Origin: Paenirhodobacter populi
Lineage (GTDB): Bacteria > Pseudomonadota > Alphaproteobacteria > Rhodobacterales > Rhodobacteraceae
Assembly (NCBI RefSeq): GCF_004022215.1
Contig: NZ_SAUZ01000019.1
Location: forward strand, 1-64,000
Length of the DNA stretch: 64,000 bases
Direction of reading: 5' to 3'
Shown here: positions 38,796 to 60,591 of the stretch, one piece after another
Layout of the letters: every line of letters begins with the position of its first letter
How positions within the stretch are numbered: the first letter of the stretch is position 1
Notes under the pieces: generated by a model
What the model was told of the DNA's origin: nothing
Database searches by the model: none
What the model saw: only the letters and a program-made list of their open reading frames with translations
Made by a program: the position numbers and the translations under genes

Positions 38796-38824
38796 TGACA
38801 CAAGGGCGGGGCCGCACTACCTGT
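38796..38824 (+). promoter_or_regulatory. ssrA: Putative promoter of the tmRNA gene
   Basis: TTGACA at 38796-38801, then 16-17 bp, then CTACCT/TACCTG, a pattern like stable-RNA promoters of alphaproteobacteria. Transcription would begin near 38831. Confidence 0.6.
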
Positions 38825-39146
38825 CAGATGTTCCTCGGAACTATGGACATAAACGGGGATCACAATAGCTTTTCTGGACTCGGCTGCGAAGCCGACACCT
38901 CCACCAAATCTTCCCTTCATTGGGGGCGCATGGGGGTGAAATAGGATCGACAGGAAGTGAAAAGGTCTTACTTTGTCCCGGTGAGCTACCACCGTTATCG
39001 GTGCAAGCATGATAGTTGCCAATGACAACCGTGCTCCGGTGGCGCTGGCTGCGTAAGCAGTTCGCAAAACCAAAACTTAAGTCCTGAGGCCTAGCAGCTT
39101 CAGGCGGGGCCCGCAGGAGCCTGGCAACAGAATCCTGCACCTTCCC
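38825..39146 (+). ncRNA. ssrA: Circularly permuted tmRNA (two-piece)
   Basis: The acceptor piece comes first and ends in CACCTCC-A-CCA at 38906. After a spacer of about 25 nt (38907-38931) the coding piece starts with GGGGGTG at 38932. These seven bases pair with CACCTCC to form the acceptor stem. GAAATAGGATCGACAGG, split here as a D-loop-like segment, follows. The tag frame at 39018-39056 reads ANDNRAPVALAA then TAA. Downstream pseudoknot-type helices (CCTGA/TCAGG, GCAGGA/TCCTGC) end near 39143. The RNA frees stalled ribosomes and tags the product for proteolysis. The exact 5' end of the acceptor piece and the processing sites are estimated. Confidence 0.95.
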
Positions 39147-39150
39147 CTTT

Positions 39151-48856: not shown

Positions 48857-48933
48857 GCCGCCTTAGCTCAGCTGGTTAGAGCACCAGATTGTGGATCTGG
48901 GGGTCTCCCGTTCGAACCGGGAAGGCGGTACCA
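48857..48933 (+). tRNA. tRNA-His (GTG)
   Basis: 77 nt with encoded CCA. Anticodon loop TTGTGGA within stem CAGAT/ATCTG. T arm TTCGAAC between CCCG/CGGG. Acceptor GCCGCCT/AGGCGGT gives a G1-U72 wobble, with A73 as discriminator. Position -1 is T, so the usual extra G-1 is not encoded, as in many alphaproteobacteria. Its 3' 46 bases serve as the attachment site of the adjacent element. Confidence 0.97.
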
Positions 48934-48935
48934 CT
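48888..48935. other. attL core (within tRNA-His)
   Basis: 48 bp identical to 60544-60591; starts ATTGTGGATC and ends GTACCACT. The flanks differ on both sides of the copies. Confidence 0.95.
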
Positions 48936-48951
48936 TACCATCTTGTTATCC

Positions 48952-50106
48952 CTATCCTTTTTCTTTCCTGCCATTGCTGGCCTGTGCCGTGGTTTGCATC
49001 CGGTTTGCAAAAGCCGTTTCCGGTGCGTTCTCAAAGCGCAGAATCGCGGCCTTCGCGATCGCCTCGGTAGAGGCGAGATAGTGCCGCAAAATCCGGGTCG
49101 CGCTTTCCAGCGTATGACCGGTGATCGCGCAGATCTGCGGTATCTCGCATCCAGCCTCTGCCAGCAGCGTGACAGCGGTTCCGCGGAGGTCGTGAAAATG
49201 CAGGAAGCCCTGCTTTTCTTCCTTGGTCAGTTCCTCGAAAGGGCGGGGATAAAAGCACGCGGTCTCCATGTGCTTTCGCCATGCCTTCCCGAGCTCCTTA
49301 TCGTTGCGCTCGGTATGCCACGGGCGGCCGTCGGCGCGAGTCAGAATGAACGGCCCTTGCCGCGCCATACCGTCCAGCATCCGTTTCAAGGCGGCGGAGA
49401 CGGGCACCGGCACCTTTCTCTTGCCCTTTGACTGGACAAGCCGGATCACCGCCCCGTCATAGTCCTGCCAGCGCAGGCGGATCAGGTCGCCATATCGCTG
49501 CCCGGTGTGGATCGCGAGAATCAGCGCCTGTTGCAGTTCAAGCGGCGCGACGGCCATGAATTTCGCAATGTCGGCTTCGGTCCAGATCATTTCCGACCTG
49601 TCTGAGACATAGGCGCGCTCGAAGCCTTCCAGCGGGTTCCGCATGATCTGTCCACGCCGTTTTGCTTCATTGAGCACCGCGCAGAAAACTGTCATGCGGT
49701 TGTCTGCCTCGCGCGGCCGGTCCAAGGCGATTTCCTCGTGATAGTCGATGAACAGCGCGTTCACCTTCGGGCTTTCCAAGGCCTTGATGGGTAGGGTGCC
49801 AAAGCGCGCTTCGATCACCGTCAGAAGCCGAAGGTATTCCTTCATGGTCGAAGGCGCTTTCGGGCGTCCCTTCTTGGTATGGGTGAATTTGCGGCCGGTG
49901 GTATAGTCGCGGATCAGCGCGGCAATGGTGCCGGTATCGCGGGCCGGGATCTTCTCGGCTTCCAGCCAAGCGGCCAGAAACTCGGGGCTGCCCGGCTCCC
50001 CCGGAAGCAAGGTGCCGGTCGCCCGGTGATAGCGATACACCTTCACCTTGCCGCCCGAGAGCCGCTTACGAACCGTGTTAACGCCCTTGATTGTCACCCT
50101 AGCCAT
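48952..50106 (-). CDS. int: Tyrosine site-specific integrase
   Basis: 384 residues. N-terminal arm-binding and core-binding domains, then a catalytic domain with Arg204 (HTGQRYGD), Lys near 229, His305/Arg308 (HFHDLRGT), His331 (ITGHTLES) and nucleophile Tyr343 (RHYLAS). All catalytic residues are present, so it should be active. The stop lies 16 bp from the attL core, the standard placement next to a tRNA target. Overlaps the 61-residue gene by 8 bp. The last of a four-gene minus-strand operon (79 aa, 48 aa, 61 aa, int). Confidence 0.97.
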   Translation of the reverse strand: MARVTIKGVNTVRKRLSGGKVKVYRYHRATGTLLPGEPGSPEFLAAWLEAEKIPARDTGTIAALIRDYTTGRKFTHTKKGRPKAPSTMKEYLRLLTVIEARFGTLPIKALESPKVNALFIDYHEEIALDRPREADNRMTVFCAVLNEAKRRGQIMRNPLEGFERAYVSDRSEMIWTEADIAKFMAVAPLELQQALILAIHTGQRYGDLIRLRWQDYDGAVIRLVQSKGKRKVPVPVSAALKRMLDGMARQGPFILTRADGRPWHTERNDKELGKAWRKHMETACFYPRPFEELTKEEKQGFLHFHDLRGTAVTLLAEAGCEIPQICAITGHTLESATRILRHYLASTEAIAKAAILRFENAPETAFANRMQTTAQASNGRKEKG

Positions 50107-50284
50107 TGCGTTTCATCCAGCTTTCCAAGGCAGCGTCAGCGCTGTCGGCCTTTGCCACCTGCGTCTGGACATGAATGCTGCCATCCGGAGCGATCACAAT
50201 GCCGGTGACGGGCAGGCCCATGTCTTGGGTCGCCTTCACCAGCCGCTTGAGATCAGGAACACGGAAGGGCAGCGGGGTTGCCAT
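50099..50284 (-). CDS. Small hypothetical protein (61 aa)
   Basis: Reads MATPLPFRVPDLKRLVKATQ, then GIVIAPDGSIHVQT near residue 30. Many phages and islands carry a short protein like this directly before the integrase. Its role is unknown; an excisionase-like function is possible but it lacks a clear helix-turn-helix. Overlaps int by 8 bp and starts 1 bp after the preceding stop. Confidence 0.7.
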   Translation of the reverse strand: MATPLPFRVPDLKRLVKATQDMGLPVTGIVIAPDGSIHVQTQVAKADSADAALESWMKRNG

Positions 50285-50285
50285 G

Positions 50286-50432
50286 TCAGGCCTCCGCCTC
50301 TTGCGCCATGTGCTGGCGAAGGATCGCGACGATTTCGCCGCCCTGCGAACGGATGTTCTTCACGGCCTGCATAGCCAGCCATTCCTTTACGTCTGCAGGA
50401 ATGACCAGTTTGAACTGGACTGCGTTATTCAC
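50286..50432 (-). CDS. Small ribbon-helix-helix-like protein (48 aa)
   Basis: GTG start at 50432 with GGGAGGG 8 bp upstream, stop at 50286. Product begins MNNAVQFKLVIPADVKEWLA and continues AVKNIRSQGGEIVAILRQHM. The FKLVIPADVKEWL / QGGEIVAILRQ layout matches Arc/MetJ ribbon-helix-helix repressors (beta strand, then two helices). It overlaps the preceding 79-residue gene by 8 bp and is followed after 1 bp by the 61-residue gene. Probably a DNA-binding regulator of the integration module. Confidence 0.7.
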   Translation of the reverse strand: MNNAVQFKLVIPADVKEWLAMQAVKNIRSQGGEIVAILRQHMAQEAEA

Positions 50433-50664
50433 CGTTGCCCTCCCTCGCCATATTTTTTCCAATTTTTTCCAAGGCTTTCAGCACCGGATTTCCCGCCAGA
50501 TCCGGTGGGAGCTTCACTTCTCGCTCTCTCAGCACTGCGAGAATGATCATTGTCTCGCGCTGAATGAGATCAATCGTCGCAGCCGCCTCGCTAAACACGT
50601 CTTTGATTTGGGCATCTGTCAGGCTTCGGGCCGCGTTCAAGGTCAGTTTGTTGTCAGGTTTCAT
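50425..50664 (-). CDS. Hypothetical protein (79 aa) of the element
   Basis: MKPDNKLTLNAARSLTDAQI begins it; the rest is helical (ATIDLIQRETMIILAVLRERE). ATG 50664 has GAGGAA upstream. First gene of the integrase operon, transcribed from the operator-rich region at 50691-50750. No family recognised. Confidence 0.65.
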   Translation of the reverse strand: MKPDNKLTLNAARSLTDAQIKDVFSEAAATIDLIQRETMIILAVLREREVKLPPDLAGNPVLKALEKIGKNMAREGNGE

Positions 50665-50690
50665 GGTTGGTTCCTCTTTCGCATAAGACC

Positions 50691-50750
50691 TGTCCGAATG
50701 ATGTCCTTTGGACTCTATTGAGTCAATCGCAATTTTATGTCCAATGGACA
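50691..50750. promoter_or_regulatory. Divergent control region with TGTCC/GGACA operators
   Basis: Contains TGTCC (50691), TGTCC-TTT-GGAC (50702-50713), GACTC-TATT-GAGTC (50711-50724) and the perfect palindrome TGTCCA-A-TGGACA (50738-50750). On the minus strand TTGACT (50726-50721), 17 bp, CATCAT (50703-50698) is a good promoter for the integrase operon, with an operator over its -10. The Arc-type repressor is encoded immediately on the other side. Confidence 0.65.
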
Positions 50751-50754
50751 CACT

Positions 50755-51117
50755 ATGTCTGAAATCGAGAAGCGCACCCTTTCCGACAAGTTCATGCTCC
50801 GGCTCCCTGATGGGATGCGGGACCGGATCAAGGCGGCCTCAGAAGCGAACAACCGATCCATGAACGCGGAGATCGTCGCGATTCTGGAAGAGAAGTTCCC
50901 GCCGCCGAATCCACCTAGCATTGACGAAATCTTAGGCCATGCCGCGCTTCTCGACCTATTCAATACCTTGCCAGAAGATCGCCCCGCGAAGGTGCTGGCA
51001 CTGAACGAGCGGCTTGCCGAGGCCGGAACAGTCGAACGGCTGACCCTGCGCAAAGGCAAAATCAAGACCGTAAGAATAGGCGAGCTCTGGGGCCCCGACA
51101 TGGCGATAGAGCCCTAG
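50755..51117 (+). CDS. Arc-family ribbon-helix-helix DNA-binding protein
   Basis: 120 residues. Residues 5-45 (EKRTLSDKFMLRLPDGMRDR, AASEANNRSMNAEIVAILEE) match the Arc repressor fold. A C-terminal extension of about 70 residues is unassigned. ATG 50755 is preferred over ATG 50737, which would lie inside the TGTCCAATGGACA operator. It is the only rightward gene at this end and its stop overlaps that of the convergent DUF2190 gene. A likely repressor of the divergent integrase operon and of itself. Confidence 0.85.
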   Translation: MSEIEKRTLSDKFMLRLPDGMRDRIKAASEANNRSMNAEIVAILEEKFPPPNPPSIDEILGHAALLDLFNTLPEDRPAKVLALNERLAEAGTVERLTLRKGKIKTVRIGELWGPDMAIEP

Positions 51118-51434
51118 CCCACCTTGACTTGAATGACGCTGGCGCTCGCCACTGCGGGTTCGGTCGCCACGCCGATCAGGGCGTTTCCGGTTGCCGTGGC
51201 CGTGGCGCGCTTAGTGGTCGCGTTCCAATACACCGCATCGCCGATCGCAAAAACGTCGTTTGCGGTCTTGTTGATCCAGAACACGCCGCGCGTGACCAGA
51301 ACAACCCGATCGCCTGCGGTTGCGTCAGCCGAGGCCACGCCCACGAGCTTGCCGGCCACAACCACGTCGCCGGCCTTGGCATCAAAATCCACGGGCAGAT
51401 AAAGGGAGTCGCCCGAATAGAGGTAGTTTTTCAT
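51114..51434 (-). CDS. DUF2190 family capsid cement/decoration protein
   Basis: 106 residues. NYLYSGDSLYLPVDFDAKAG, VGVASADATAGDRV and VYWNATTKRAT are the small beta-barrel pattern of DUF2190 proteins, which decorate phage heads. ATG 51434 has AAGGGA 8 bp upstream. Last gene of the morphogenesis operon, directly after the gpW-like gene. Confidence 0.85.
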   Translation of the reverse strand: MKNYLYSGDSLYLPVDFDAKAGDVVVAGKLVGVASADATAGDRVVLVTRGVFWINKTANDVFAIGDAVYWNATTKRATATATGNALIGVATEPAVASASVIQVKVG

Positions 51435-51436
51435 CT

Positions 51437-51652
51437 TCAAAATCCCTTGTTGGTGGAGAACCGAACGCTGCCGGGGCGCGCGGAGGCGGCCGCGGCGATG
51501 CGTCGCTCGAGGTCAGTGATAGCCGCCGCCAGTTCCGCTCCGGTCATGTATTCGACCTTGCGGCCATCGGAGAAGGTCACGGAGCGGGTGCCCGAGGCGC
51601 GGGCGCGCAGCAGCGCGTCCCGCATGGAGATCAGTTCTTCGGCAGAAGGCAT
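51437..51652 (-). CDS. gpW-like head-tail joining protein
   Basis: 71 residues. SAEELISMRDALLRARASGT, then VTFSDGRKVEYMTGAELAAA and a final helix resemble lambda gpW, which plugs the portal after packaging. In lambda-like phages this gene usually sits between terminase and portal; here it follows the capsid gene. ATG 51652 is preferred to ATG 51685, which overlaps the capsid gene. Confidence 0.8.
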   Translation of the reverse strand: MPSAEELISMRDALLRARASGTRSVTFSDGRKVEYMTGAELAAAITDLERRIAAAASARPGSVRFSTNKGF

Positions 51653-51656
51653 GGCC

Positions 51657-53531
51657 TCAGTCTTCCGTGCCGGCGAGAAGGCCAAAGATCATATCGCTGT
51701 CAGAAACAGGCAACTCGGTCGGGCTGATGATCAGCCGATGCCAGCCGCGCCAATCCACCCAGCCGGCGCCGAAATCGAGGCGGACCTTGGTCTGCACCCC
51801 GTCGATCTCGAAGCCGGTGCGGGTCTCGATCTGCGGGCCGGGGGCGCCCTCGAGGTAGGAATATTCCAGCCCTTCGACCTTGCTGGGGTCCGCCGCGAAA
51901 TACCACGCATTGCTCGGCAGGCGGGGGTCCACCAGAAGTTTCAAGTCGGCCGGGAAGGCATTCGGGGCGCCGTAGAGGCTACCGCGCAGGTTGGAGATCA
52001 TGCGCTCGAAGATATTCTCGAAGAGCGGATGCACCAGAACATAGCTCGGAGCCGCATCGATGAACTGCCCGCCCGGCCCCTTGCGCAGACGCATGGCGGT
52101 GCGGATCGCCGCGAGTGCGGTGAACGCCAGATTCTTCACGGTCGTGTCAGCCGAACCGGCGGTGATGGCATTGGCGATCACCTGCCAAAGGTCATCATCG
52201 GTATCGGCATTGTTCCGAGTCGCGTCGAACACCGGCATCCCGTCCGCCATTGCCGGGTTGCTGGAAACCATATTGGCAAGGTAGGCGTTCTCGAAGTCCC
52301 GCGCGGCCTCCCCCATCAACTTCGGCAGCGCGGAAAAGGCGCCGAGGTCATCGTTCACCAGCGCCTGACGCGAAATCCCGAAGATGCGGCCGAAGGTCTG
52401 GGCAGCGTATTTCTCGCCGGTTTCCGTCATGGTGCCGTGCGGGAACTCGCCAGCCTCGGGCACATGGATCAGGTTCGGCGCGGAGCCCAGCCCGACCTTG
52501 GATTTCGGCCGGAAATCGCGCACCGTGCTTTGCCGCGCGGCCTGGCGCACCCCGGCCGGGCCGGACTGATAAGACTGGCGAAGATTGCGCCCCACGGCAT
52601 CGCCCAGGATCAGGCCAAAGTCGCCGTTCACGTGCAACGCGCGGGTGATGATGCCTTCCGCCGCAAGGCCGGTCAGGCTGACACCCGATCGACGCAACGA
52701 ATCTCGGGCCAGGTCGATGAAGCTGGCATAGGCGAACTGCCGCGATTCGGGCGAGAGCTGATGTTCGGGATGCGAGCGGGCGAACAAAGCCTCGCCGGCG
52801 CGGGTGGCGATCACCGCTGGGTCGTCATGGCTGAACCCGACATGGGCGCGGGTGGTGCGCACATTCTGTTCCGCGCCGCGCTGGCGCATTGCCTCGAAGG
52901 CCGCGGCGCGGGCGGCCTCGACCGTGGTTTCGGCGTCGATCTGAGCATCGGTCCAAGCCTGATCGAGGCTGGCCGTCGCCGCGATGCTGCGGATTTCCGC
53001 GTTGATCTGGGCGCGCGTCATGGTGCCCGCATCATGGTTTTCCTGGGTTTCCGGCATGGGAATGTCCTCGCTCCTGAAGCCCGCTGCCGGATCTGCCGGC
53101 ACAGGCACGATTGAAATTTCAATGGGTTGCCACTTGGCTGCGGTGCGGATGCGATCCTTGCCACGGCGGGTTTCCGTCCAGGTCTCGACGCTGTAGCCGA
53201 TCGACAGGCCGCGCAGGGTGCCGTCCGCGATATCCGCCAGCACCGCCCTTGCGGCGTCATTTGAGCGGAAGCGCAGGCGGACCCAGAGCCCCTCTGGCCG
53301 GACCTCGGCCGCGTCAACGACGCCCAGTTGATCTTTGGTCGAGCTTGCGCGGTGCGCGTCCAGAACCGGAGCGCCGATCAAGCGGGACAGGTCAGCGCCG
53401 GCCAGGTCCAGGCGCTCGGTGAAGCCGCTGCGGCGCACCTCGGCCCCCGTGCTGGCGATCGCCTCAACGGTGCGGGCTTCCAGGTTGACGCTTGAAACGG
53501 CAGGCGCGGCGGCGCGCAGATGCAGGGTCAT
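51657..53531 (-). CDS. Fused prohead protease-major capsid protein
   Basis: 624 residues. Residues 15-150 are an HK97-type (U35) prohead protease with His60 (LDAHRASS) and Ser110 (GLSIGYS). A linker near residues 155-190 (VPVPADPAAGFRSED) leads to an HK97-fold major capsid protein. Its recognisable parts are GEFPHGTMTETGEKYAAQTF, ISRQALVNDDLGAF and DPRLPSNAWYFAADP. Fusion makes scaffold/protease and shell stoichiometric before self-cleavage. Overlaps the portal gene by 4 bp. Confidence 0.93.
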   Translation of the reverse strand: MTLHLRAAAPAVSSVNLEARTVEAIASTGAEVRRSGFTERLDLAGADLSRLIGAPVLDAHRASSTKDQLGVVDAAEVRPEGLWVRLRFRSNDAARAVLADIADGTLRGLSIGYSVETWTETRRGKDRIRTAAKWQPIEISIVPVPADPAAGFRSEDIPMPETQENHDAGTMTRAQINAEIRSIAATASLDQAWTDAQIDAETTVEAARAAAFEAMRQRGAEQNVRTTRAHVGFSHDDPAVIATRAGEALFARSHPEHQLSPESRQFAYASFIDLARDSLRRSGVSLTGLAAEGIITRALHVNGDFGLILGDAVGRNLRQSYQSGPAGVRQAARQSTVRDFRPKSKVGLGSAPNLIHVPEAGEFPHGTMTETGEKYAAQTFGRIFGISRQALVNDDLGAFSALPKLMGEAARDFENAYLANMVSSNPAMADGMPVFDATRNNADTDDDLWQVIANAITAGSADTTVKNLAFTALAAIRTAMRLRKGPGGQFIDAAPSYVLVHPLFENIFERMISNLRGSLYGAPNAFPADLKLLVDPRLPSNAWYFAADPSKVEGLEYSYLEGAPGPQIETRTGFEIDGVQTKVRLDFGAGWVDWRGWHRLIISPTELPVSDSDMIFGLLAGTED

Positions 53532-54835
53532 GGCTTCGGCTCCTGTTGCTGGCGCTCACGGTCGCGGGCGCGCTCCTCGTCCAGCTCGTCGATGTCTCGG
53601 CCGCGGGCGGCGACAGACTCTTCCCGGCTCTTTAGCCCCGCGCCGATCGCTGCAATCTCGGCCTCGACCTCGTTGCGAGGATCGACCCACTGCCAGCCGG
53701 GCGGCACGAACCGCACGGCCTTGTATTGCTCGGCCTGCTCGCGCTGAAAATCGCCCGCCAAGGCACGGACCTCGATCCAGCGCCGCCAGAGTGGCAGCAG
53801 AAATTGCGCCTCGATCAGGCTGCGTTGCAGCGCCTCACACCGCCGGCGGACTTCCAGGATACCGACTCTGGCCGATGAATAGTTAGTCTGCGACAGGTCG
53901 CCGCTCAGCATCTCGGCGGTTAACCCGGTTCCGGCTGCGATTTCGCGATCTTGGGTGCGCAGAAACTCAATGGCCTGTTGCAGTCCCTGACCGGGAGTCG
54001 AGAACGTGACATCAGCGCCAGGCGGCAACACCCGCATCGCACCAGGTTCGAGCGAAACGTTCAGCGCCCCGGCGGCGCCGTCACCATCGAACCCCGCCGA
54101 TCCGCCTTCGGGGTCGCGGATGAAGCCAGTGATCAGCGACTGCACTTTCAGCGCCATCAACATGGCGTCGGAAGCCTCGTCCCGATCGCGGAGCTTCAAC
54201 AGAACGGGCGACAGCCACGACAGGCCGCGCACCTGCCCCGGAAACTGCGTGTCATAGACATGCAGAATGTCCGATGCCGGCACCCGCACCGGCGCGCCAT
54301 AGAAGCCAAAGGGCTGGTCGGGCGCATCGCGCAGAACATGATACGCGATCGGCTCGTCGTTCGGGTCCAGTTCCACCCCCGCCACGATCCGGCGCCCGGC
54401 GCCCAGGTCTCGGGTCAGGCTCGGATCGATCTGGTCGGCGGACAGCAATCTGACGCGAAACGTGCCGTCCGCTGCGACAAAGGTCTGCACGAAAGCCTCG
54501 CCATCGCGCACGAGACCGCGGGCCAGCGGCAGCATAAGCGGCCGAAAAAGCGCCTCGAACCCCTCGGCCAGAGATCGGCGGATTTCCGGGTCGGGATACT
54601 GCGGCCGGGCTTGCCAGCCCTTGCCGCCCACCAGGTTGGATGCCCAGACCTCGACAATCCGTTGCCCATAGGGCGTGTTCGCATAAACGCCCGATGCCCG
54701 CGCCTTGGCCGGGCCGCGCGCGCCAAGGGTCTGCGAAGCGGGCGCGGTCAGGGCAGATGCACCTTCCCATCTCCGGCCGCCCGCGCCAGCCTCGACGCCC
54801 ACAGATCGTTTGAAGATGCGCCCCCAAAAGCCCAT
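53528..54835 (-). CDS. Phage portal protein, lambda family
   Basis: 435 residues. Contains YANTPYGQRIVEVWASNLVGG near residue 50, VRLLSADQIDPSL and VPASDILHVYDTQFPGQVRG, typical of lambda gpB-like portals. It forms the dodecameric DNA entry channel. Overlaps the HTH gene stop by 1 bp (TGATG) and the protease-capsid gene by 4 bp. Confidence 0.95.
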   Translation of the reverse strand: MGFWGRIFKRSVGVEAGAGGRRWEGASALTAPASQTLGARGPAKARASGVYANTPYGQRIVEVWASNLVGGKGWQARPQYPDPEIRRSLAEGFEALFRPLMLPLARGLVRDGEAFVQTFVAADGTFRVRLLSADQIDPSLTRDLGAGRRIVAGVELDPNDEPIAYHVLRDAPDQPFGFYGAPVRVPASDILHVYDTQFPGQVRGLSWLSPVLLKLRDRDEASDAMLMALKVQSLITGFIRDPEGGSAGFDGDGAAGALNVSLEPGAMRVLPPGADVTFSTPGQGLQQAIEFLRTQDREIAAGTGLTAEMLSGDLSQTNYSSARVGILEVRRRCEALQRSLIEAQFLLPLWRRWIEVRALAGDFQREQAEQYKAVRFVPPGWQWVDPRNEVEAEIAAIGAGLKSREESVAARGRDIDELDEERARDRERQQQEPKP

Positions 54836-55296
54836 CAGAGCCCCCGAATGCGGCGAATCTGCATCTCGAAATCCGCCTTCGCAGCGGCATAAGCATCAGG
54901 GCCGCCATAGCCTGTTTCAGGATCGAGGGTTGCCGCAATATGGTGGCAAAACCAATCGGCCAGTTCGCGGCCGAAATCCTCAAGAGAAATCGCCTCAAGG
55001 CCCCCGATACCGGGCGGCGCGTGCAAAGGCGTCCCCTTCATAAAGGTCTCGAAAGCGTCTGCTCCATTCGCAAACGTCGCCGCCGTGATCGTGCTTGCTC
55101 CGGCCTCGATCAGCACTTTGGCAGCATATGCTTTCAGGCAGTCGCCGAAGCCCCATTCAGCGGTCTTGCCTTTCCCCGGCGCCTGATCAGGCAGCAGCCC
55201 GCCACGCTTGCGCCAAGTCTTGAAGGTTTCGAGCTTCACGCCCAGAAACGCGGCAAGGGCTTCGGTCGAAATTCTCTGTGTGCTGATCGTGCGCAT
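54835..55296 (-). CDS. MerR/excisionase-like helix-turn-helix protein
   Basis: 153 residues. Residues 5-60 (RISTEALAAFLGVKLETFKT, WRKRGGLLPDQ, then GFGDCLKAYAAKVLIEAG) look like a winged helix of the MerR/AlpA type. A helical tail ends in QIRRIRGL. ATG 55296 is the start; the frame continues upstream without a ribosome site. As first gene before portal and capsid, it may regulate the morphogenesis operon, perhaps through the inverted repeat over its own promoter. Confidence 0.65.
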   Translation of the reverse strand: MRTISTQRISTEALAAFLGVKLETFKTWRKRGGLLPDQAPGKGKTAEWGFGDCLKAYAAKVLIEAGASTITAATFANGADAFETFMKGTPLHAPPGIGGLEAISLEDFGRELADWFCHHIAATLDPETGYGGPDAYAAAKADFEMQIRRIRGL

Positions 55297-55324
55297 TGAC
55301 TGTCCGGAAAACGGGATAGAATCG

Positions 55325-55359
55325 AACCTTATTTGAGGTTCATCTGGGTTTTTTGTCAA
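55325..55359 (-). promoter_or_regulatory. Promoter of the HTH-portal-capsid operon with overlapping inverted repeat
   Basis: On the minus strand TTGACA (55359-55354), 17-bp spacer, TCAAAT (55336-55331). The inverted repeat AACCT-TATTTG-AGGTT (55325-55340) covers the -10 box, in position for repression. The 55360-55506 stretch beyond holds no gene. Confidence 0.65.
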
Positions 55360-55506
55360 TGCGGAGCCTTCCGCCCCGTGCCTTGCGAGGGCTGGTGCCT
55401 GCCGCGCGCATGGAAATATGCGCCGCAGGCTCTCGGGGTTAAGCAGCACTCGCCGAGTTGCTGGCGGCTTTCGGGTGAATCAAGTAAGCCCCGAGGCGAC
55501 GCAGCC

Positions 55507-56094
55507 TTATCCCGGATTCAGCTCACGCCAGAACACCGCGATCTTCTTGCGGAGGCAACTCGGGTCCGGTGTTTCACCGGTGTCCGATCGCCGCTCGAAC
55601 CAGCCAAGCATTTCGTCCACCAGATCCTTTTGGTGCTCCGGCAGGCCATGATTATGGATTCGCATGATCAGGGCAGAATAGAACCCATCCCAATCCCAAT
55701 TTGATTTCCCGCCGCGATAGTTCGGATTCCTCGGGACAAGCTCACACTCGATCTCGAACTTCTCGATCTCGCCGGCGGTGATCAGGATATCGCGCGCCTC
55801 AAGCACAATGGCTTCCTCGCGCGGAATGACTTTCCAGCCATCAGGCGATTCATCGGGCAGAAACATGCGGATTCGTGCCGGCCTAGCGATCGATCCGTCG
55901 CGGGGGAACAGATCGAAAACTTCCGAAGCCTGAATATGGGCAAGCCCGCAAAAATTGATCGCCTCGGAAAAAGGGATTCGGGCGGACAGCCTGATCCTGT
56001 CCATCATGGAAAATTCAATGATGTCCGCCGGCGCGCAGCGGAGGCGCGCAGCTATTTCAAAAACCGTGAACAGATATCTGCGGGGAAGCGTCAT
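55507..56094 (-). CDS. Hypothetical protein of the element (195 aa)
   Basis: Reads MTLPRRYLFTVFEIAARLRC, APADIIEFSMMDRIRLSARI, and further on IRMFLPDESPDGWKVIPREE. The N-terminal part resembles a helix-turn-helix that recognises target DNA, as in phage-encoded regulators, but no family is certain. Lower GC than its neighbours. Lies between terminase and the portal operon, where unrelated accessory genes are often inserted. ATG 56094 has TGAGG 9 bp upstream. Confidence 0.6.
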   Translation of the reverse strand: MTLPRRYLFTVFEIAARLRCAPADIIEFSMMDRIRLSARIPFSEAINFCGLAHIQASEVFDLFPRDGSIARPARIRMFLPDESPDGWKVIPREEAIVLEARDILITAGEIEKFEIECELVPRNPNYRGGKSNWDWDGFYSALIMRIHNHGLPEHQKDLVDEMLGWFERRSDTGETPDPSCLRKKIAVFWRELNPG

Positions 56095-56115
56095 AATGTT
56101 ATACCTCACAAAGGC

Positions 56116-57900
56116 TTAATTTCGTTTCATCCATGAAGACTGAAGAATTGGCGGCCTGACTTGCCCCGGAAGCGCGCCGACTGTCGCAAGATCGGATCGT
56201 CGCTGATCCGGGTTAATGTTCACCATCTGCCGGGCGGCGAAGGCGTAAACGGTGCAGTCCAGCGCCTCGGCGCGCTTGCCGGGGATGCGCTCGAAGTTCC
56301 GCACCGGCTGGCCTCGGGAATAGCGCACCACGGCGCGCTCCGACGCGACCTGTTCATACCATACGGCGGGCAGATCGGCTGAGAACCGCACGTGGCCCGC
56401 GCGCGGAAGGCGGGCGAAAAGCTGTATCTTCACCGTATCCACGCCGACAATCCAGAGCCGGGCGCCGGTCTTTGTCTTTGATCCGGCCCGTTCGATTACT
56501 GGCCTGTTTCCAGCTGCGCCCTTGATCGCAAAGATTTTTCGTGCGGTGCGGGGACGGCAGAAGGCCGTCACGGCGTTCATTGAGGTCCCGTCGCCCGCGT
56601 CGATCGCCGTGGCGTCGATCGCGATCTTGCCGCCAAGCGCATGCGGAAAGCGTTCGCGCAGGAGTATTTCCAATTCAGCCCATGTTTCATCGGCGTCGAA
56701 CGCGCCCCAGATCACCCTATGGGCGAGGATCAGCATGCCGCCCGCCTCGGTCCAGCCGACATAGGTCAACTCAAGCCGGTCGTGCTGCACGTCGCATCCC
56801 ACCGTCAGCGCCAGAACCTCGGCCGGAACCAATGTCAGCCCGAAGTCCTCGGCGCGCGCCGCCATGCCGCCTTCATCCAGTTCATCGCCCTCGGAGCGCC
56901 AGCCCTGCCCGAGGATCGTGTTGACGAAGGTTTGCAAGGTGGTCGGATCGTCCTTGGCCGACAGGAACTCGGTCGCCAGCTTGCCCCATGCGGCGTTCGC
57001 GTGAAGGCTGATCAGGGCGTTCATGCGGAAACCGGCGTGGCCCTGCACCTGCGGCGCCGTGGCGCGCCAGCGGCCTTCCTCGATCATCTGCGGCTTGTGG
57101 CGCTCCTCGATCTCCTCGGCGCAGTTCGGGCAGCGCCAGCACGCGGCCTCGGGTTGCCCCTCGGGCCATGTGATCTGATCCCAGGTGATTTCCTCGAAGA
57201 TCCCGCAGCAGGGGCACGGCACCTCAAATATGCGCTGATCGGATTGGGCATAGGCGCGCAGGACGTGGCTCGTCTCCTCATGCACCGGGGTCGAGCCGAG
57301 GACGATCTTGCGATCCGGGAAGGACAGGGTTCGGCGTTCGGCCAGCAGGATGGGCGAGCCTTCGGCGGTCGGGGCCATGCCATCCACCTCGTCCATCATC
57401 AGCATGCGGACATTGTGCCGGCGCAGGTTGCGCGGGGCCTTGGCAGCGACGACCTTGAGCGAGCCGCCGGGGAAGCGGCGCGACAGCAGCGTATTGCGGC
57501 CTGCCTCGTCCAGATCACCGGACAGGGCGCTGGCGACGGCGGGCGAGGCGCTGAAGATCGGCTCGATATCCGAAACCACATAGTCGCGGCAGTCGGATTC
57601 GGCGGGCAGCAGGCAGAGAATGGGCGCAGGATCGTTGGCAACGAAGCTCGCAATGGCCGAGGTCAACAGCGTGGTGAAGCCGACACGCACAGGCTTCACC
57701 AGCGTTACGCGCTCTATCAGCGGATCGCCGATCGCGTCGGCAATCTCGCGCTGGAACGGCCAGAGGCGCACCGGGCCGGGCTGGCTCGATACGCCCTCGG
57801 GCAGACAAACTTCGCGCTCTATCCAGTCGGAAAGGCGCAGACGCGGCGGCGGCATCAGGGCGCGCAGGGCCTCGGTCCGGATCTGGTCAATCGTCGGCAT
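56116..57900 (-). CDS. Terminase large subunit, lambda GpA family
   Basis: 594 residues. The ATPase shows the lambda-type Walker A variant VKPVRVGFTT near residue 70 and Walker B MLMMDEVDGM. A zinc-finger-like CPCCG...CWRCPNCAEEIEE follows near residue 250, and the nuclease end includes VGCDVQHDRLELTYVGW and DATAIDAGDGTSM. It cuts and pumps DNA into the capsid. ATG 57900 overlaps the small-subunit gene by 14 bp. The longer frame to 58089 has no homology. Confidence 0.95.
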   Translation of the reverse strand: MPTIDQIRTEALRALMPPPRLRLSDWIEREVCLPEGVSSQPGPVRLWPFQREIADAIGDPLIERVTLVKPVRVGFTTLLTSAIASFVANDPAPILCLLPAESDCRDYVVSDIEPIFSASPAVASALSGDLDEAGRNTLLSRRFPGGSLKVVAAKAPRNLRRHNVRMLMMDEVDGMAPTAEGSPILLAERRTLSFPDRKIVLGSTPVHEETSHVLRAYAQSDQRIFEVPCPCCGIFEEITWDQITWPEGQPEAACWRCPNCAEEIEERHKPQMIEEGRWRATAPQVQGHAGFRMNALISLHANAAWGKLATEFLSAKDDPTTLQTFVNTILGQGWRSEGDELDEGGMAARAEDFGLTLVPAEVLALTVGCDVQHDRLELTYVGWTEAGGMLILAHRVIWGAFDADETWAELEILLRERFPHALGGKIAIDATAIDAGDGTSMNAVTAFCRPRTARKIFAIKGAAGNRPVIERAGSKTKTGARLWIVGVDTVKIQLFARLPRAGHVRFSADLPAVWYEQVASERAVVRYSRGQPVRNFERIPGKRAEALDCTVYAFAARQMVNINPDQRRSDLATVGALPGQVRPPILQSSWMKRN

Positions 57901-58384
57901 GGGCAAGGTCCTCAAGAGCGGTGCGCAGTTCCCGGTCGATCGAGGCGACTTCGGAGGCATTGAGATGTGGCAAGGCGGAACGGATGCGGGATGGCACAGC
58001 GAGGACGCGGGATCGCACCTGTCGCAGCACCTCGGCCCATGCGCGGGTGACCTCCGAGGCGGAAACCATTTCGCCGCGAAGGGCCGCATTCTTCAATGCC
58101 TGGGCGTCGGCCTGTTCCTTGGCAAGGCGGGCGCGCTCCGCCGTCAGGCTTGCGGTATGTTCCTCGCCGCCCCGGCCCGAAGCAACACCCCGAAGATGCA
58201 TGACATAGGCAGAGATGGTCGCGCCGAGATCATAGGAATCATGGCCGAGGCGAACCGCAATGCCACGTTTCTTCAGGTCCGAAAGGGCGGCGGGAGATAT
58301 CGCTAAAAGTTCGCACATGTCAGGGCCGGAAATCCGGTGGGTGACCTCCCCGCCAAGCTCAAGTTCTGTTAATATTTTCAACAA
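57887..58384 (-). CDS. Terminase small subunit, Nu1-like
   Basis: 165 residues. Residues 18-60 (ISGPDMCELLAISPAALSDL, KKRGIAVRLGHDSYDL) form the winged helix that binds cos. The LRGVASGRGGEEHTASLTAE linker leads to a coiled-coil dimerisation helix and a GpA-binding tail. It selects the DNA to be packaged, so this element probably carries its own cos-type packaging specificity. Confidence 0.9.
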   Translation of the reverse strand: MLKILTELELGGEVTHRISGPDMCELLAISPAALSDLKKRGIAVRLGHDSYDLGATISAYVMHLRGVASGRGGEEHTASLTAERARLAKEQADAQALKNAALRGEMVSASEVTRAWAEVLRQVRSRVLAVPSRIRSALPHLNASEVASIDRELRTALEDLAHADD

Positions 58385-58478
58385 CTTGATTTAACCCCCT
58401 TACGGATTTCTGCATCGCCCGATATGCCGCGCCTCCGCGCCCCGCTACCATTTCAGTCGGGAAGGACCCGCCGGGCGC

Positions 58479-59135
58479 TCATCTCCACCGCGCCATGACC
58501 GCGCGAACCAGACGATCGCCGGCATCCCGCGTATCGCGAGCGAGGTCGATGCGCTTCTTCAGGCTGACTTGCGGCACAAGGAAGAATATGACCTCTGCCT
58601 TCTCGACAGTCTTCAACGCCTTGCGCCGTCTCCGCCGATCTGCCACGGCAGCGCCCTTCACGTTGATCCGCGCCTTGTCCAAGACCAGCCAGCTAGGCCC
58701 CGTGCGCCTCGGCACGAAACGGAGCTTGAGGCCCGTGCGCTTCTCCCAAAGCTGCGGCGTCATCCTCGCTCCGCGTGGGTTTCGGCCTGCCGCAGGGGTG
58801 GGGATCGCCAGGAACATGCCATGCTGCGATCGGATCAAGGCGCCCTTGTCAAAGGCATTTATCACATCGGCCGCACTGGCAGATTGCTTCCGGTTTGGCT
58901 GGGCATAGACCAGTGACGCCGCGGAAATGGAGTCGCCCTTATCCGGGAAATTGCGCTTGCGGATAGCCCGCGCTAGCCGATCGCCAAGACCCGCCGCAAC
59001 TATTTGTCCGCGCCACCGTTTCTGCACGTGCTCGGCGGTATCTTTCACACCGGCCGTAATCGCACGTTCCGCCAAGCGGATTTCGTCCTCCATGATCCCC
59101 GAAATGGAGGCGTCGAGCTCAAACTTGATCCGCAT
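58479..59135 (-). CDS. DUF6441-like, possible head-tail connector protein
   Basis: 218 residues. Resembles a phage family with KRWRGQIVAAGLGDRLARAI and HGMFLAIPTPAAGRNPRGAR and an overall HK97 gp10-like outline. Expected at the head-tail interface. Its place upstream of the terminase genes is unusual for such a protein. Start ATG 59135; another ATG upstream (59150s) is in frame. Confidence 0.6.
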   Translation of the reverse strand: MRIKFELDASISGIMEDEIRLAERAITAGVKDTAEHVQKRWRGQIVAAGLGDRLARAIRKRNFPDKGDSISAASLVYAQPNRKQSASAADVINAFDKGALIRSQHGMFLAIPTPAAGRNPRGARMTPQLWEKRTGLKLRFVPRRTGPSWLVLDKARINVKGAAVADRRRRRKALKTVEKAEVIFFLVPQVSLKKRIDLARDTRDAGDRLVRAVMARWR

Positions 59136-59379
59136 ATCTGTCCCCGATCTCATTTTCACTCGGGCGCAATGCCTCGGCAGCATCCATCAGCCGGTCAGCT
59201 GCGGCGGTGCTGGCGGAAGCGTGGTCGAGGTCGGTCAGTGCGGCGGGTTCGCTGGCTGCGTTCCTTGCCCTCTCGATATGCGCTTCGCTTTCAGCAATGC
59301 GCATTTCCGCTTGGGAAATGGCGGCGTCAAATGCCGCGTCCGAGGCTTTTTTCCAGCTTTTCTGTGCATCATTGCTCAT
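59119..59379 (-). CDS. Hypothetical coiled-coil protein (86 aa)
   Basis: MSNDAQKSWKKASDAAFDAA begins it, then an Ala/Glu-rich helix (SQAEMRIAESEAHIERARNA). Acidic and predicted almost entirely helical. Overlaps the DUF6441 gene by 17 bp. Could be a scaffold-like or size-determination factor, but nothing in the sequence proves it. Confidence 0.6.
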   Translation of the reverse strand: MSNDAQKSWKKASDAAFDAAISQAEMRIAESEAHIERARNAASEPAALTDLDHASASTAAADRLMDAAEALRPSENEIGDRYADQV

Positions 59380-59806
59380 ATCGAGTCCTATCCTATGTTG
59401 CGCCCCATCCGAATGGTGAGGGTCTGAGCGAAGGTCAGAAAGCGGGTTAAGCAGCGGGGTTGAAAACCCGCCTCCCGCCCTGACCTTCACGATCTTGCCT
59501 GCTCATCCGAACGGAGCCGGGCCGTCGCTTAGGCCAGACCTGCCTTTCCCTCGGCATGGTCCGCTCTCCCATGTTCGCTGGCGTGAGGGGGCCAGCGGGG
59601 CCTTGGGGCTTGGAGAGACCGGCATTGCCGGAATAGCTGCCCCTGCGGATTTTCACCGCGCCGACAGGGCTATCGCCCTGACTGCTCGCGCCTTGGCCCG
59701 TTCCATCGGTTGCGCTTTAGGCTTGGCGGCCCATGTAACCCGTGAACCCCACCGCCAGCCGATGCGACGCCCGCGCGCCGCAAGTTACTTGCACCCGTTC
59801 AGCGGA
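59380..59806. other. 427-bp gap with nested inverted repeats; candidate packaging or control site
   Basis: No convincing gene. It holds a nested repeat (GAAGGTCAG 59430-59438 with CTGACCTTC 59480-59488, and GCGGGTT 59442-59448 with AACCCGC 59465-59471) and a smaller hairpin CAGGGC-TATC-GCCCTG (59665-59680). A possible small open frame on the minus strand (59447-59656) is rich in R, P and G and not protein-like. Confidence 0.5.
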
Positions 59807-60046
59807 TCATGGCGTGTCCTCCGGGTCGATCGGGGACCATTCCTCGGCATCGCCGCCGCCCATCTCGGCCAGGGCGGCGCGCATCAGGAACTCTTGCTTG
59901 GGGGTCGGCATCCAGCCGGGGCGCTTACCCTGGCGAGCGATCGAGCATGCGAACTTCCGGCTCCATGCATCGCCCTCGGCCATCGCTCGCCTGACCACGG
60001 CCGGCCATTGCAAGGTGAGAATTTGATCGACCTCGACTTCGGTCAT
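59807..60046 (-). CDS. Hypothetical protein (79 aa) of the element
   Basis: MTEVEVDQILTLQWPAVVRR is the start, then AMAEGDAWSRKFACSIARQG and a C-terminal acidic tail. ATG 60046 overlaps the preceding gene by 4 bp. No family recognised. Confidence 0.6.
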   Translation of the reverse strand: MTEVEVDQILTLQWPAVVRRAMAEGDAWSRKFACSIARQGKRPGWMPTPKQEFLMRAALAEMGGGDAEEWSPIDPEDTP

Positions 60047-60408
60047 ATCGCGACCGAGCCAATATAATGAAAGAACCGCGCCTGATCTGCCGGGGCCATG
60101 GCCTCGAAAGCGGCAAGGGCATAAGCCTTGAGTTCTTCCGCGCTCGCCCACTGTGACCAATTCCGCGCATCATGCATTCCACCGAGGAATGCGGGCAGTG
60201 GATCGCCGGCCGCACCGATAACCGCGGCGGCGATACTTGTGGCCTCGCCGTGGTCAAGGGTCGCGAGGACGACAGCCGCCAGCGCGGCGCGTTCGCCCGC
60301 GCTCAGTCGTGCCGCAGCGATAAGGCCGAAGGCTTGCCATGCCTCAGATGTGCCCAGAATAAGGCTGTAGCCCAGCATCCGCGACATGCGCTTGTGTCGG
60401 GGGGCCAT
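60043..60408 (-). CDS. Hypothetical protein (121 aa) of the element
   Basis: MAPRHKRMSRMLGYSLILGT starts it; helical throughout (LSAGERAALAAVVLATLDHG, ADQARFFHYIGSV at the end). Coupled to the 79-residue gene by an ATGA overlap. The open frame continues upstream through the attachment site, which is accidental. No family recognised; the pair is at the attR end, where satellites often carry accessory (e.g. interference) genes. Confidence 0.6.
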   Translation of the reverse strand: MAPRHKRMSRMLGYSLILGTSEAWQAFGLIAAARLSAGERAALAAVVLATLDHGEATSIAAAVIGAAGDPLPAFLGGMHDARNWSQWASAEELKAYALAAFEAMAPADQARFFHYIGSVAI

Positions 60409-60543
60409 CGCGCGGGAAATGATGTTGCCCGATTTCCGGCGGCTGGTTTCGGTTTGCAGGCTATTTATAACCTGTTGATCCGAAAGCCCTTTGCTTTTCG
60501 TCGGTTTGCAGGAAATCCCTTGTTTTTCAATATCCTCGCAAAA

Positions 60544-60591
60544 ATTGTGGATCTGGGGGTCTCCCGTTCGAACCGGGAAGGCGGTACCACT
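60544..60591. other. attR core (tRNA-His 3' fragment)
   Basis: Second copy of the 48-bp core. Lacks the 5' half of the tRNA, so it is not a functional gene. Confidence 0.95.

Follow-up and report, generated by a model that had tools for sequence, protein, structure and literature searches.

In capsid-forming phage-inducible chromosomal islands (cfPICIs), packaging is of the HK97 type, and an AlpA-type regulator together with a primase is a hallmark of the group. These islands have been described as encoding their own heads and packaging machinery, with an HNH endonuclease among the latter, and as requiring a helper phage for tails only (PMC10690885, PMC11389934). The model for phage-inducible chromosomal minimalist islands (PICMIs) treats int, AlpA and primase as mandatory (PMC10803314). 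The Streptomyces satellites MulchRoom and MiniFlayer are reported to encode their own terminase, portal, capsid and adaptor, but no primase homologue; MulchRoom is further credited with an integrase and with a tail that stems from its helper (PMC10690885). In gammaproteobacterial PICIs, the DNA is packaged by a lambda-type terminase at cos (PMC9026076; PMC10690885). Capsid-forming satellites are described mainly from gammaproteobacterial and Gram-positive families (PMC10803314), and cfPICIs as widely distributed across Bacteria (PMC10690885). Here, we analyzed an element at positions 48888-60591 of a 64,000-nucleotide stretch of Paenirhodobacter populi DNA (contig NZ_SAUZ01000019.1, positions 1 to 64,000; the whole stretch is called the window below), which, judging from its own genes and those of its relatives, is very probably an integrated capsid-forming phage satellite.

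The borders of this element are marked by a perfect 48-bp direct repeat, whose copies (attL, 48888-48935; attR, 60544-60591) have a spacing of 11656 and enclose 11,704 bp. A tRNA-His gene (48857-48933, plus strand) lies intact at the element edge and is the integration target. The family-matched genes are all on the minus strand, except for one divergent Arc repressor. They include a tyrosine integrase (48952-50106; PF00589, 6.9e-13; phrog_1, 1.3e-37), the translation of which contains the motifs TGQR, HDLR, GH and HY, presumably with catalytic roles. The packaging genes are the Nu1-type terminase small subunit TerS (57887-58384; PF07471, 1.8e-7; phrog_57, 2.3e-28) and the GpA-type large subunit TerL (56116-58089, start perhaps at 57900; PF05876, 5.9e-85; PF20454, 9.2e-85). 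They are accompanied by a lambda-family portal protein (53528-54835; PF05136, 2.6e-71), a prohead protease (Peptidase_S78) fused to the major capsid protein (51657-53531; PF25209, 2.3e-49; PF04586, 6e-10; phrog_4523), a head-tail adaptor Ad1 of the gpW type (82 aa, 51437-51685; phrog_2545, 2.5e-16; no Pfam match), and a capsid cement or decoration protein (51114-51440; PF09956, Phage_cement_2, 4.3e-23; phrog_122). An initial annotation of this DNA, made from the sequence alone, had listed the att duplication in tRNA-His, the integrase with its catalytic residues, both terminases, portal, fused protease-capsid, cement and a 'gpW-like' gene (the Ad1 above), and all of them were recovered here. 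Thus its borders and its head and packaging gene set stand, whereas its statements on tail genes and promoters are corrected below and the candidate cos site had been missed.

The element resembles cfPICIs such as EcCIEDL933 in being integrated and in possessing terminase, portal, protease, capsid and head-tail connector genes. It differs from them in its lambda/GpA-type terminase, lambda-family portal, fused protease-capsid and lambda-like cos candidate, and the HNH endonuclease of the cfPICI packaging module (PMC10690885) was not found in the Pfam and PHROG scans of the element proteins. The same scans detected neither AlpA nor primase in the window copy, which also distinguishes it from PICMIs; of this PICI set, primases are present in relatives. 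The relationship to cfPICIs proposed at that time holds in that the element has head and packaging genes of its own, whereas descent from a PICI or cfPICI lineage is unsupported. The element is best read as belonging to a satellite lineage that would work like cfPICIs, but it is not filed as a cfPICI, given its lambda-type terminase and portal and the failure of the scans to find HNH, AlpA or primase. MulchRoom and MiniFlayer, compared by their published description only, differ in their direct terminal repeats, virulent helpers and hosts. The cos PICIs of gammaproteobacteria are described as redirecting the terminase of the helper, whereas the present element encodes its own terminase and head.

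Similar elements are common in Rhodobacteraceae. By using the capsid as query, six viral contigs of 11-14 kb (one being the element of the window) and four Rhodobacteraceae genome contigs, including those of Paracoccus chinensis, Histidinibacterium lentulum and Mameliella alba, were retrieved. TerL matched at E<=1e-100 in at least 29 of 394 sampled genomes of the family and 28 of 393 genera, the own genome counted, which is a lower bound with at most three candidates scored per genome. Among 42 examined loci (given L numbers below), 32 elements could be delimited, ranging from 9.2 to 15.0 kb with a median of 11.7 kb; a block of the same build, which the initial annotation had suggested looking for at tRNA-His, is present in 31 other delimited elements. 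The undelimited loci are L007 (no flanks), L040 (no repeat found), L042 (tailed prophage), L102 and L103 (no boundary), L076, L077, L078 and L082 (cut or without a usable repeat), and L085, which shares a contig with L004. The 32 include near-copies (L002/L081 and L096/L098) and two elements from one genome (L094/L095). Direct repeats of at least 16 bp were found in 25, and the ends of the other seven, with repeats of 13-15 bp only, are provisional. A tRNA gene of one of 10 kinds lies at the edge of 27 elements, and tRNA-His is used again by L038, whose integrase is 82% identical to that of the window.

The gene content of the delimited elements is highly consistent: capsid was found in all 32, TerL in 31, portal in 30, Ad1 in 30, TerS in 29, the main integrase cluster in 25, and cement in 22, and the gap between TerL and portal measures 1.1-3.1 kb in all 30 measurable elements. 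Two larger members of 13.7 and 15.0 kb (L081 and L090) contain IS21-type genes, as assigned by sequence, and a 10.6-kb member resides at tRNA-Glu on a Paracoccus versutus replicon. Outside the family, a class-wide search gave matches at E<=1e-120 in four of 385 genomes, two of which belong to the family of the window. A complete 11.8-kb member (L211) was found at tRNA-Gly with a 49-bp repeat in another alphaproteobacterial family, and the fourth match (L212) shows a different gene order with no boundary found.

Upstream of TerS, positions 58426-58470 (minus strand) form a candidate lambda-type cos, in which a cosQ-like GGGTCCTTCC, a 15-nt spacer and a cosN-like C+G-rich dyad follow a lambda-like layout; cosB would lie between this candidate and TerS. 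We take the letters of cosQ to be GGGTCCT. When the DNA before TerS was aligned for 12 core elements, CGGGTCCTTC was invariant within otherwise poorly aligned surroundings, with a C+G-rich partial dyad 14-17 nt after it, and the single copy of CGGGTCCTT in the 64 kb is this one before TerS, on the minus strand. Within a fixed 600 bp before TerL, GGGTCCTT was observed in 21 of 31 elements, whereas 200 first-order resamplings yielded 0.25 on average and never more than 2, an expectation that does not remove the relatedness among elements. The 15-row TerL clade to which the window belongs contains 13 delimited elements, every one of which carries GGGTCCTT, and at the right end of lambda, it starts 30 bases before the end. 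According to a published description, cosQ is a 7-bp site of high conservation at which packaging terminates (PMC4669245). Among viral contigs with enough upstream DNA, tailed ones included, CGGGTCCTT was detected in 37 of 60 and absent from 23, six more being too short; before TerS, it was found in only three of 16 phage records (L166, L171 and L175) and two of three unclassified records. Two alternative cosN-like dyads (AATTCG-centred and others) were noticed upstream of TerS, one group comprising L037, L038, L039, L075, L079, L084 and L101 and the other L002-L005 and L081; they do not strictly follow the TerL tree and may mark packaging specificities.

On the tail side, a DUF6441 protein is encoded at 58479-59183 (minus strand; PF20039, 3.4e-33; start perhaps at 59135), with homologues in 15 phage records. 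The best matches are hypothetical proteins of cyanophages (45% identity), and 11 of the 15 records are Rhodobacter capsulatus phages, in which the homologue is annotated as a minor tail protein adjoining a head-tail attachment protein (36-37%). In phage RcKvothe, one further minor tail gene lies between the DUF6441 homologue and the tail tube, so that this homologue presumably occupies the place of lambda gpZ. Based on this gene position and homology, the element appears to encode a protein of the neck or of tail completion, as would suit the attachment of a tail from elsewhere. The RcKvothe minor tail protein at the Z position was matched by the window, L005, L006, L007 and L009, and its attachment protein by L005, L009 and L083 (FII homologues); L006 is the element of the window and L009 that of L005, each from another collection. 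In the profile family tables (the 25 commonest of 81, 76, 29 and 31 families), the tail-side families are DUF6441 (twice), a minor tail protein in L101 and Phage_attach (twice). The L101 protein is encoded shortly before TerS, the same placement as DUF6441; a relationship between the two was considered and rejected, as BLASTP gave no meaningful match. The predicted structure of the DUF6441 protein (mean pLDDT 49) was not used.

To search for tail and lysis genes, 29 proteins taken from seven phage records served as a panel (tail proteins and a few lysis proteins, with the neck genes FII and Z excluded; three LPPA33 proteins are unannotated and were picked by position) at E<=1e-3. None of the 32 elements matched any panel protein, whether of the tail tube, the tape measure, the baseplate or lysis, compared with eight of 13 comparison contigs. 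Of the five negative contigs, L151 and L185 carry satellite-type elements, L177 was covered partly, and L103 and L180 are unclassified. Among non-core reading frames of at least 58 aa, 214 of 220 were scanned with profiles, the other six being L086:5178-5882, L096:2034-4073 and four frames of L098. The earlier claim that no tail gene is recognisable is inexact in view of the tail-side DUF6441 gene.

Comparison with tailed phages suggested different histories for individual head genes. In the portal tree (57 rows; a quick method with SH-aLRT only), 16 phages stand opposite 31 elements and 10 unclassified rows on a branch with a support of 97; L177 and L186 were classed as phages by contig or gene order alone. 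In the TerL tree (68 rows), tailed-phage contigs branch from within the elements. This conflict implies that the histories of portal and terminase differ, and satellites and phages seem to exchange terminases. The contigs L166, L171 and L175 (34.6-39.3 kb) encode RcKvothe-type tube and tape-measure genes, and their portal closely follows TerL; L173, L181 and L183 encode contractile-tail baseplate genes. The RcKvothe group as well as L166, L171 and L175 resemble the element in the protease-capsid fusion, a gene in the cement position and a DUF6441-type minor tail protein, with a gpW-like gene in RcKvothe and a common TerL clade and cos motif in the other three. They differ from it in their distant portal and capsid and in lacking a long stretch of regulator genes between TerL and portal, and RcKvothe is a 41-kb tailed phage. 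Two further viral contigs of 18 and 30 kb (L180 and L182) show a satellite-type portal and head genes before the terminase, and L182 has a minor tail homologue.

A metagenomic relative, L176 (11,498 bp), has 127-bp terminal direct repeats and would close to 11,371 bp. It encodes integrase, TerS, TerL, portal, capsid and cement, with no panel tail gene, and is likely a circular satellite genome, although assembly across tandem copies could also explain the repeats. Among 73 viral loci tested, some covered in part, terminal repeats were seen in L176 only. L166, L171 and L175, which share the terminase lineage, the cos motif and a DUF6441 homologue with the elements, represent the best helper candidates. 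With regard to helper, induction and transfer, we infer the following course. The Arc-type repressors would keep the element silent, and after infection by a tailed phage, the integrase and a small excisionase-like protein would release it. Its DNA would be multiplied by enzymes of the helper or host, as the window copy has no recognised primase, and its terminase would cut at cos and fill the element's own head. Ad1 and the DUF6441 protein would then dock the tail of a siphovirus of the RcKvothe or L166-L175 type, and helper lysis would free particles that inject the satellite into a new cell.

Several observations weigh against such an interpretation. The cos motif is absent from 10 of 31 elements in the 600 bp before TerL and from the complete relative L211. 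In the capsid tree (52 rows), the elements do not form one clade and the phages switch state twice, with weak deep branches, and L039 and L101 carry the TerL of another branch. TerL is common to the tailed phages L166, L171 and L175 at 67% identity, and packaging therefore does not constitute a satellite-only lineage; a previous indication that no tailed phage has a TerL above 46%, which fitted the family genomes, was overturned by these viral contigs. No tRNA piece was recognised in L176. The own genome lacks an RcKvothe-type tail tube (present in five of 18 genus genomes), Baseplate_J (matched in three of 14 genomes in a control search) and a second DUF6441, so that a helper of such a type would have to come from outside. 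An empty site was not readable by synteny: the neighbouring gene Bax1 is present in 17 of 18 genus genomes, and none of the 10 stretches examined at this neighbour contained tRNA-His. Finally, the absence of tails is based on sequence similarity, and rare tail families could be hidden beyond the 25 commonest of each profile table.

The shared TerL, cos motif and DUF6441 of L166, L171 and L175, together with the phage homologues of the head genes, might also be expected if the element were the deletion remnant of a full-length prophage that had lost its tail, lysis and replication genes. However, the same gene order and a similar size recur in the 31 other delimited elements, 24 of which have repeats of at least 16 bp, rather than the irregular loss and the head genes of a full-length relative that would characterize a defective remnant. 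Full-length relatives with the same head genes had been named in the initial annotation as a possible refutation, and they exist with respect to TerL, whereas portal and capsid of these phages are only 34-38% identical to the element queries. Considering also that the portal side is set apart from all 16 phages and that the core reading frames of the window are open, an origin as a prophage remnant appears extremely unlikely.

The primase-helicase genes of many members, the probably circular contig and a tail absence judged by similarity only would be compatible with a virus that needs no helper and has no tail, or only a short one that escaped recognition. This is very unlikely given that the neck-type genes (Ad1, DUF6441 and, in L005 and L083, FII homologues) fit a particle that carries a tail, that no lysis match was obtained among the few lysis proteins of the panel, and that the largest predicted open reading frame of any element (787 aa) belongs to the primase/AAA_25 cluster. 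It is likewise most improbable that the satellite heads take the tail of a host gene transfer agent (GTA) instead of a phage. The tail module of RcKvothe does include a protein annotated as GTA TIM-barrel-like, and neither tested phage tail gene is present in the own genome, but DUF6441 matches phage neck genes, and the terminase lineage and cos motif shared by satellites and tailed phages point to phage partners. The family, the panel, the portal side and L176 lend good support to the proposal of a satellite that forms capsids but has no tail module. The proposal needs qualification for one tail-completion-like gene, which partly corresponds to the other refutation named in the initial annotation (tail or lysis genes in the unassigned frames) without overturning the proposal.

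On this basis, a broader scenario can be suggested tentatively, and is held here to be possible but rather doubtful: a separate, Rhodobacteraceae-centred satellite lineage as old as the portal branch would trade TerL and cos with siphophages, and a swappable neck gene near TerS (DUF6441, another minor tail protein or FII) would set which tail fits. If this is true, helper choice would amount to a swappable adaptor cassette. The titles and abstract beginnings surveyed included none on capsid-forming satellites of Rhodobacteraceae and none relevant for Paracoccus prophages or Roseobacter satellites, and a term search of the available text of an alphaproteobacterial phage meta-analysis (PMC10783043) did not reveal the word 'satellite'; such elements may already be contained in published cfPICI or SatelliteFinder lists. 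These findings outline a large satellite group of Rhodobacteraceae with a lambda-type head and a cos candidate, to which a single complete relative from another alphaproteobacterial family can be added. With its separate portal branch, shared cos and recurring neck genes, the group lends itself to tests of how helpers are chosen and of where the satellites came from. Moreover, many of the 9-13-kb entries called 'proviruses' in viral databases may be such satellites and not fragments.

The regulatory region is located to the right of the integrase. An Arc-like ribbon-helix-helix protein (50286-50462, minus strand; PF03869, 3.8e-5) and a small protein without Pfam or PHROG match (50425-50664, minus strand; a longer start at 50751 is possible) face a divergent Arc-type repressor (50737-51117, plus strand; PF03869, 8e-14; alternative start at 50755). 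Two controlled promoters had been proposed, and a consensus scan gave two promoter-like sites versus 2.1 expected in shuffles, so that this proposal was rejected as far as consensus is concerned. On the other hand, a palindrome TGTCC-N3-GGAC(A) is present at 50702 and 50738 in the divergent region, with no other copy in the 64 kb, and L007 has a similar pair with an identical 36-bp spacing, which supports a candidate operator pair at 50702-50750. The small Arc-type module that had been suggested is present in the window copy but is not family-wide, as 18 of the 32 members have left-end genes of the replication-type clusters described below and other repressor types occur; Arc homologues also lie within the TerL-portal gap of several elements, such as L002.

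With regard to replication, a gene of the primase/helicase or AAA_25 clusters is located at the left end in 18 of the 32 elements, and the tested representatives were of the Prim-Pol/PriCT-2/AAA_25, VapE-type, D5-type or AAA_25-alone kinds. Four elements contain winged-helix proteins in place of these genes. In the window, the left end encodes a 79-aa protein (59807-60046; cluster in 10 of 32 elements), with no match in phage records at E<=0.01, and a 114-aa protein (60043-60387; cluster in 11 of 32 elements), with one partial match in phage records. In L003, L043 and L087, the latter cluster lies directly before the AAA_25-cluster protein.

The remaining genes, like the two left-end ones, are on the minus strand. 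A 61-aa gene (50099-50284) overlapping the integrase, whose cluster occurs in eight of 32 elements, may have an excisionase-like role, as suggested by its position. A probable helix-turn-helix regulator (54835-55296; a longer start at 55449 is possible), assigned by alignment, directly precedes the portal gene, its PHROG matches to DNA-binding proteins or TerS being weak (best E 0.011). A phage protein (55507-56109; phrog_13283, 5.3e-49) and a small protein without a convincing family (59119-59379; a longer start at 59490 is possible) were also identified.

Additional observations were made in other loci and in the window. L043:7586-16789 contains capsid, AAA_25, a ClpP-like protease and integrase without a recognised TerL or portal, and L092:8338-10029 encodes a probable GmrSD-type restriction protein as cargo, the family being assigned to the frame by sequence. 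In L151:10865-11445, a second, different o186/o117 pair directly follows the integrase, probably reflecting two satellites in tandem, and an integrase before the left end was also found in L079, L081, L138, L156 and L161. A tmRNA gene, unrelated to the element, was located by ARAGORN at 38815-39147 of the window.

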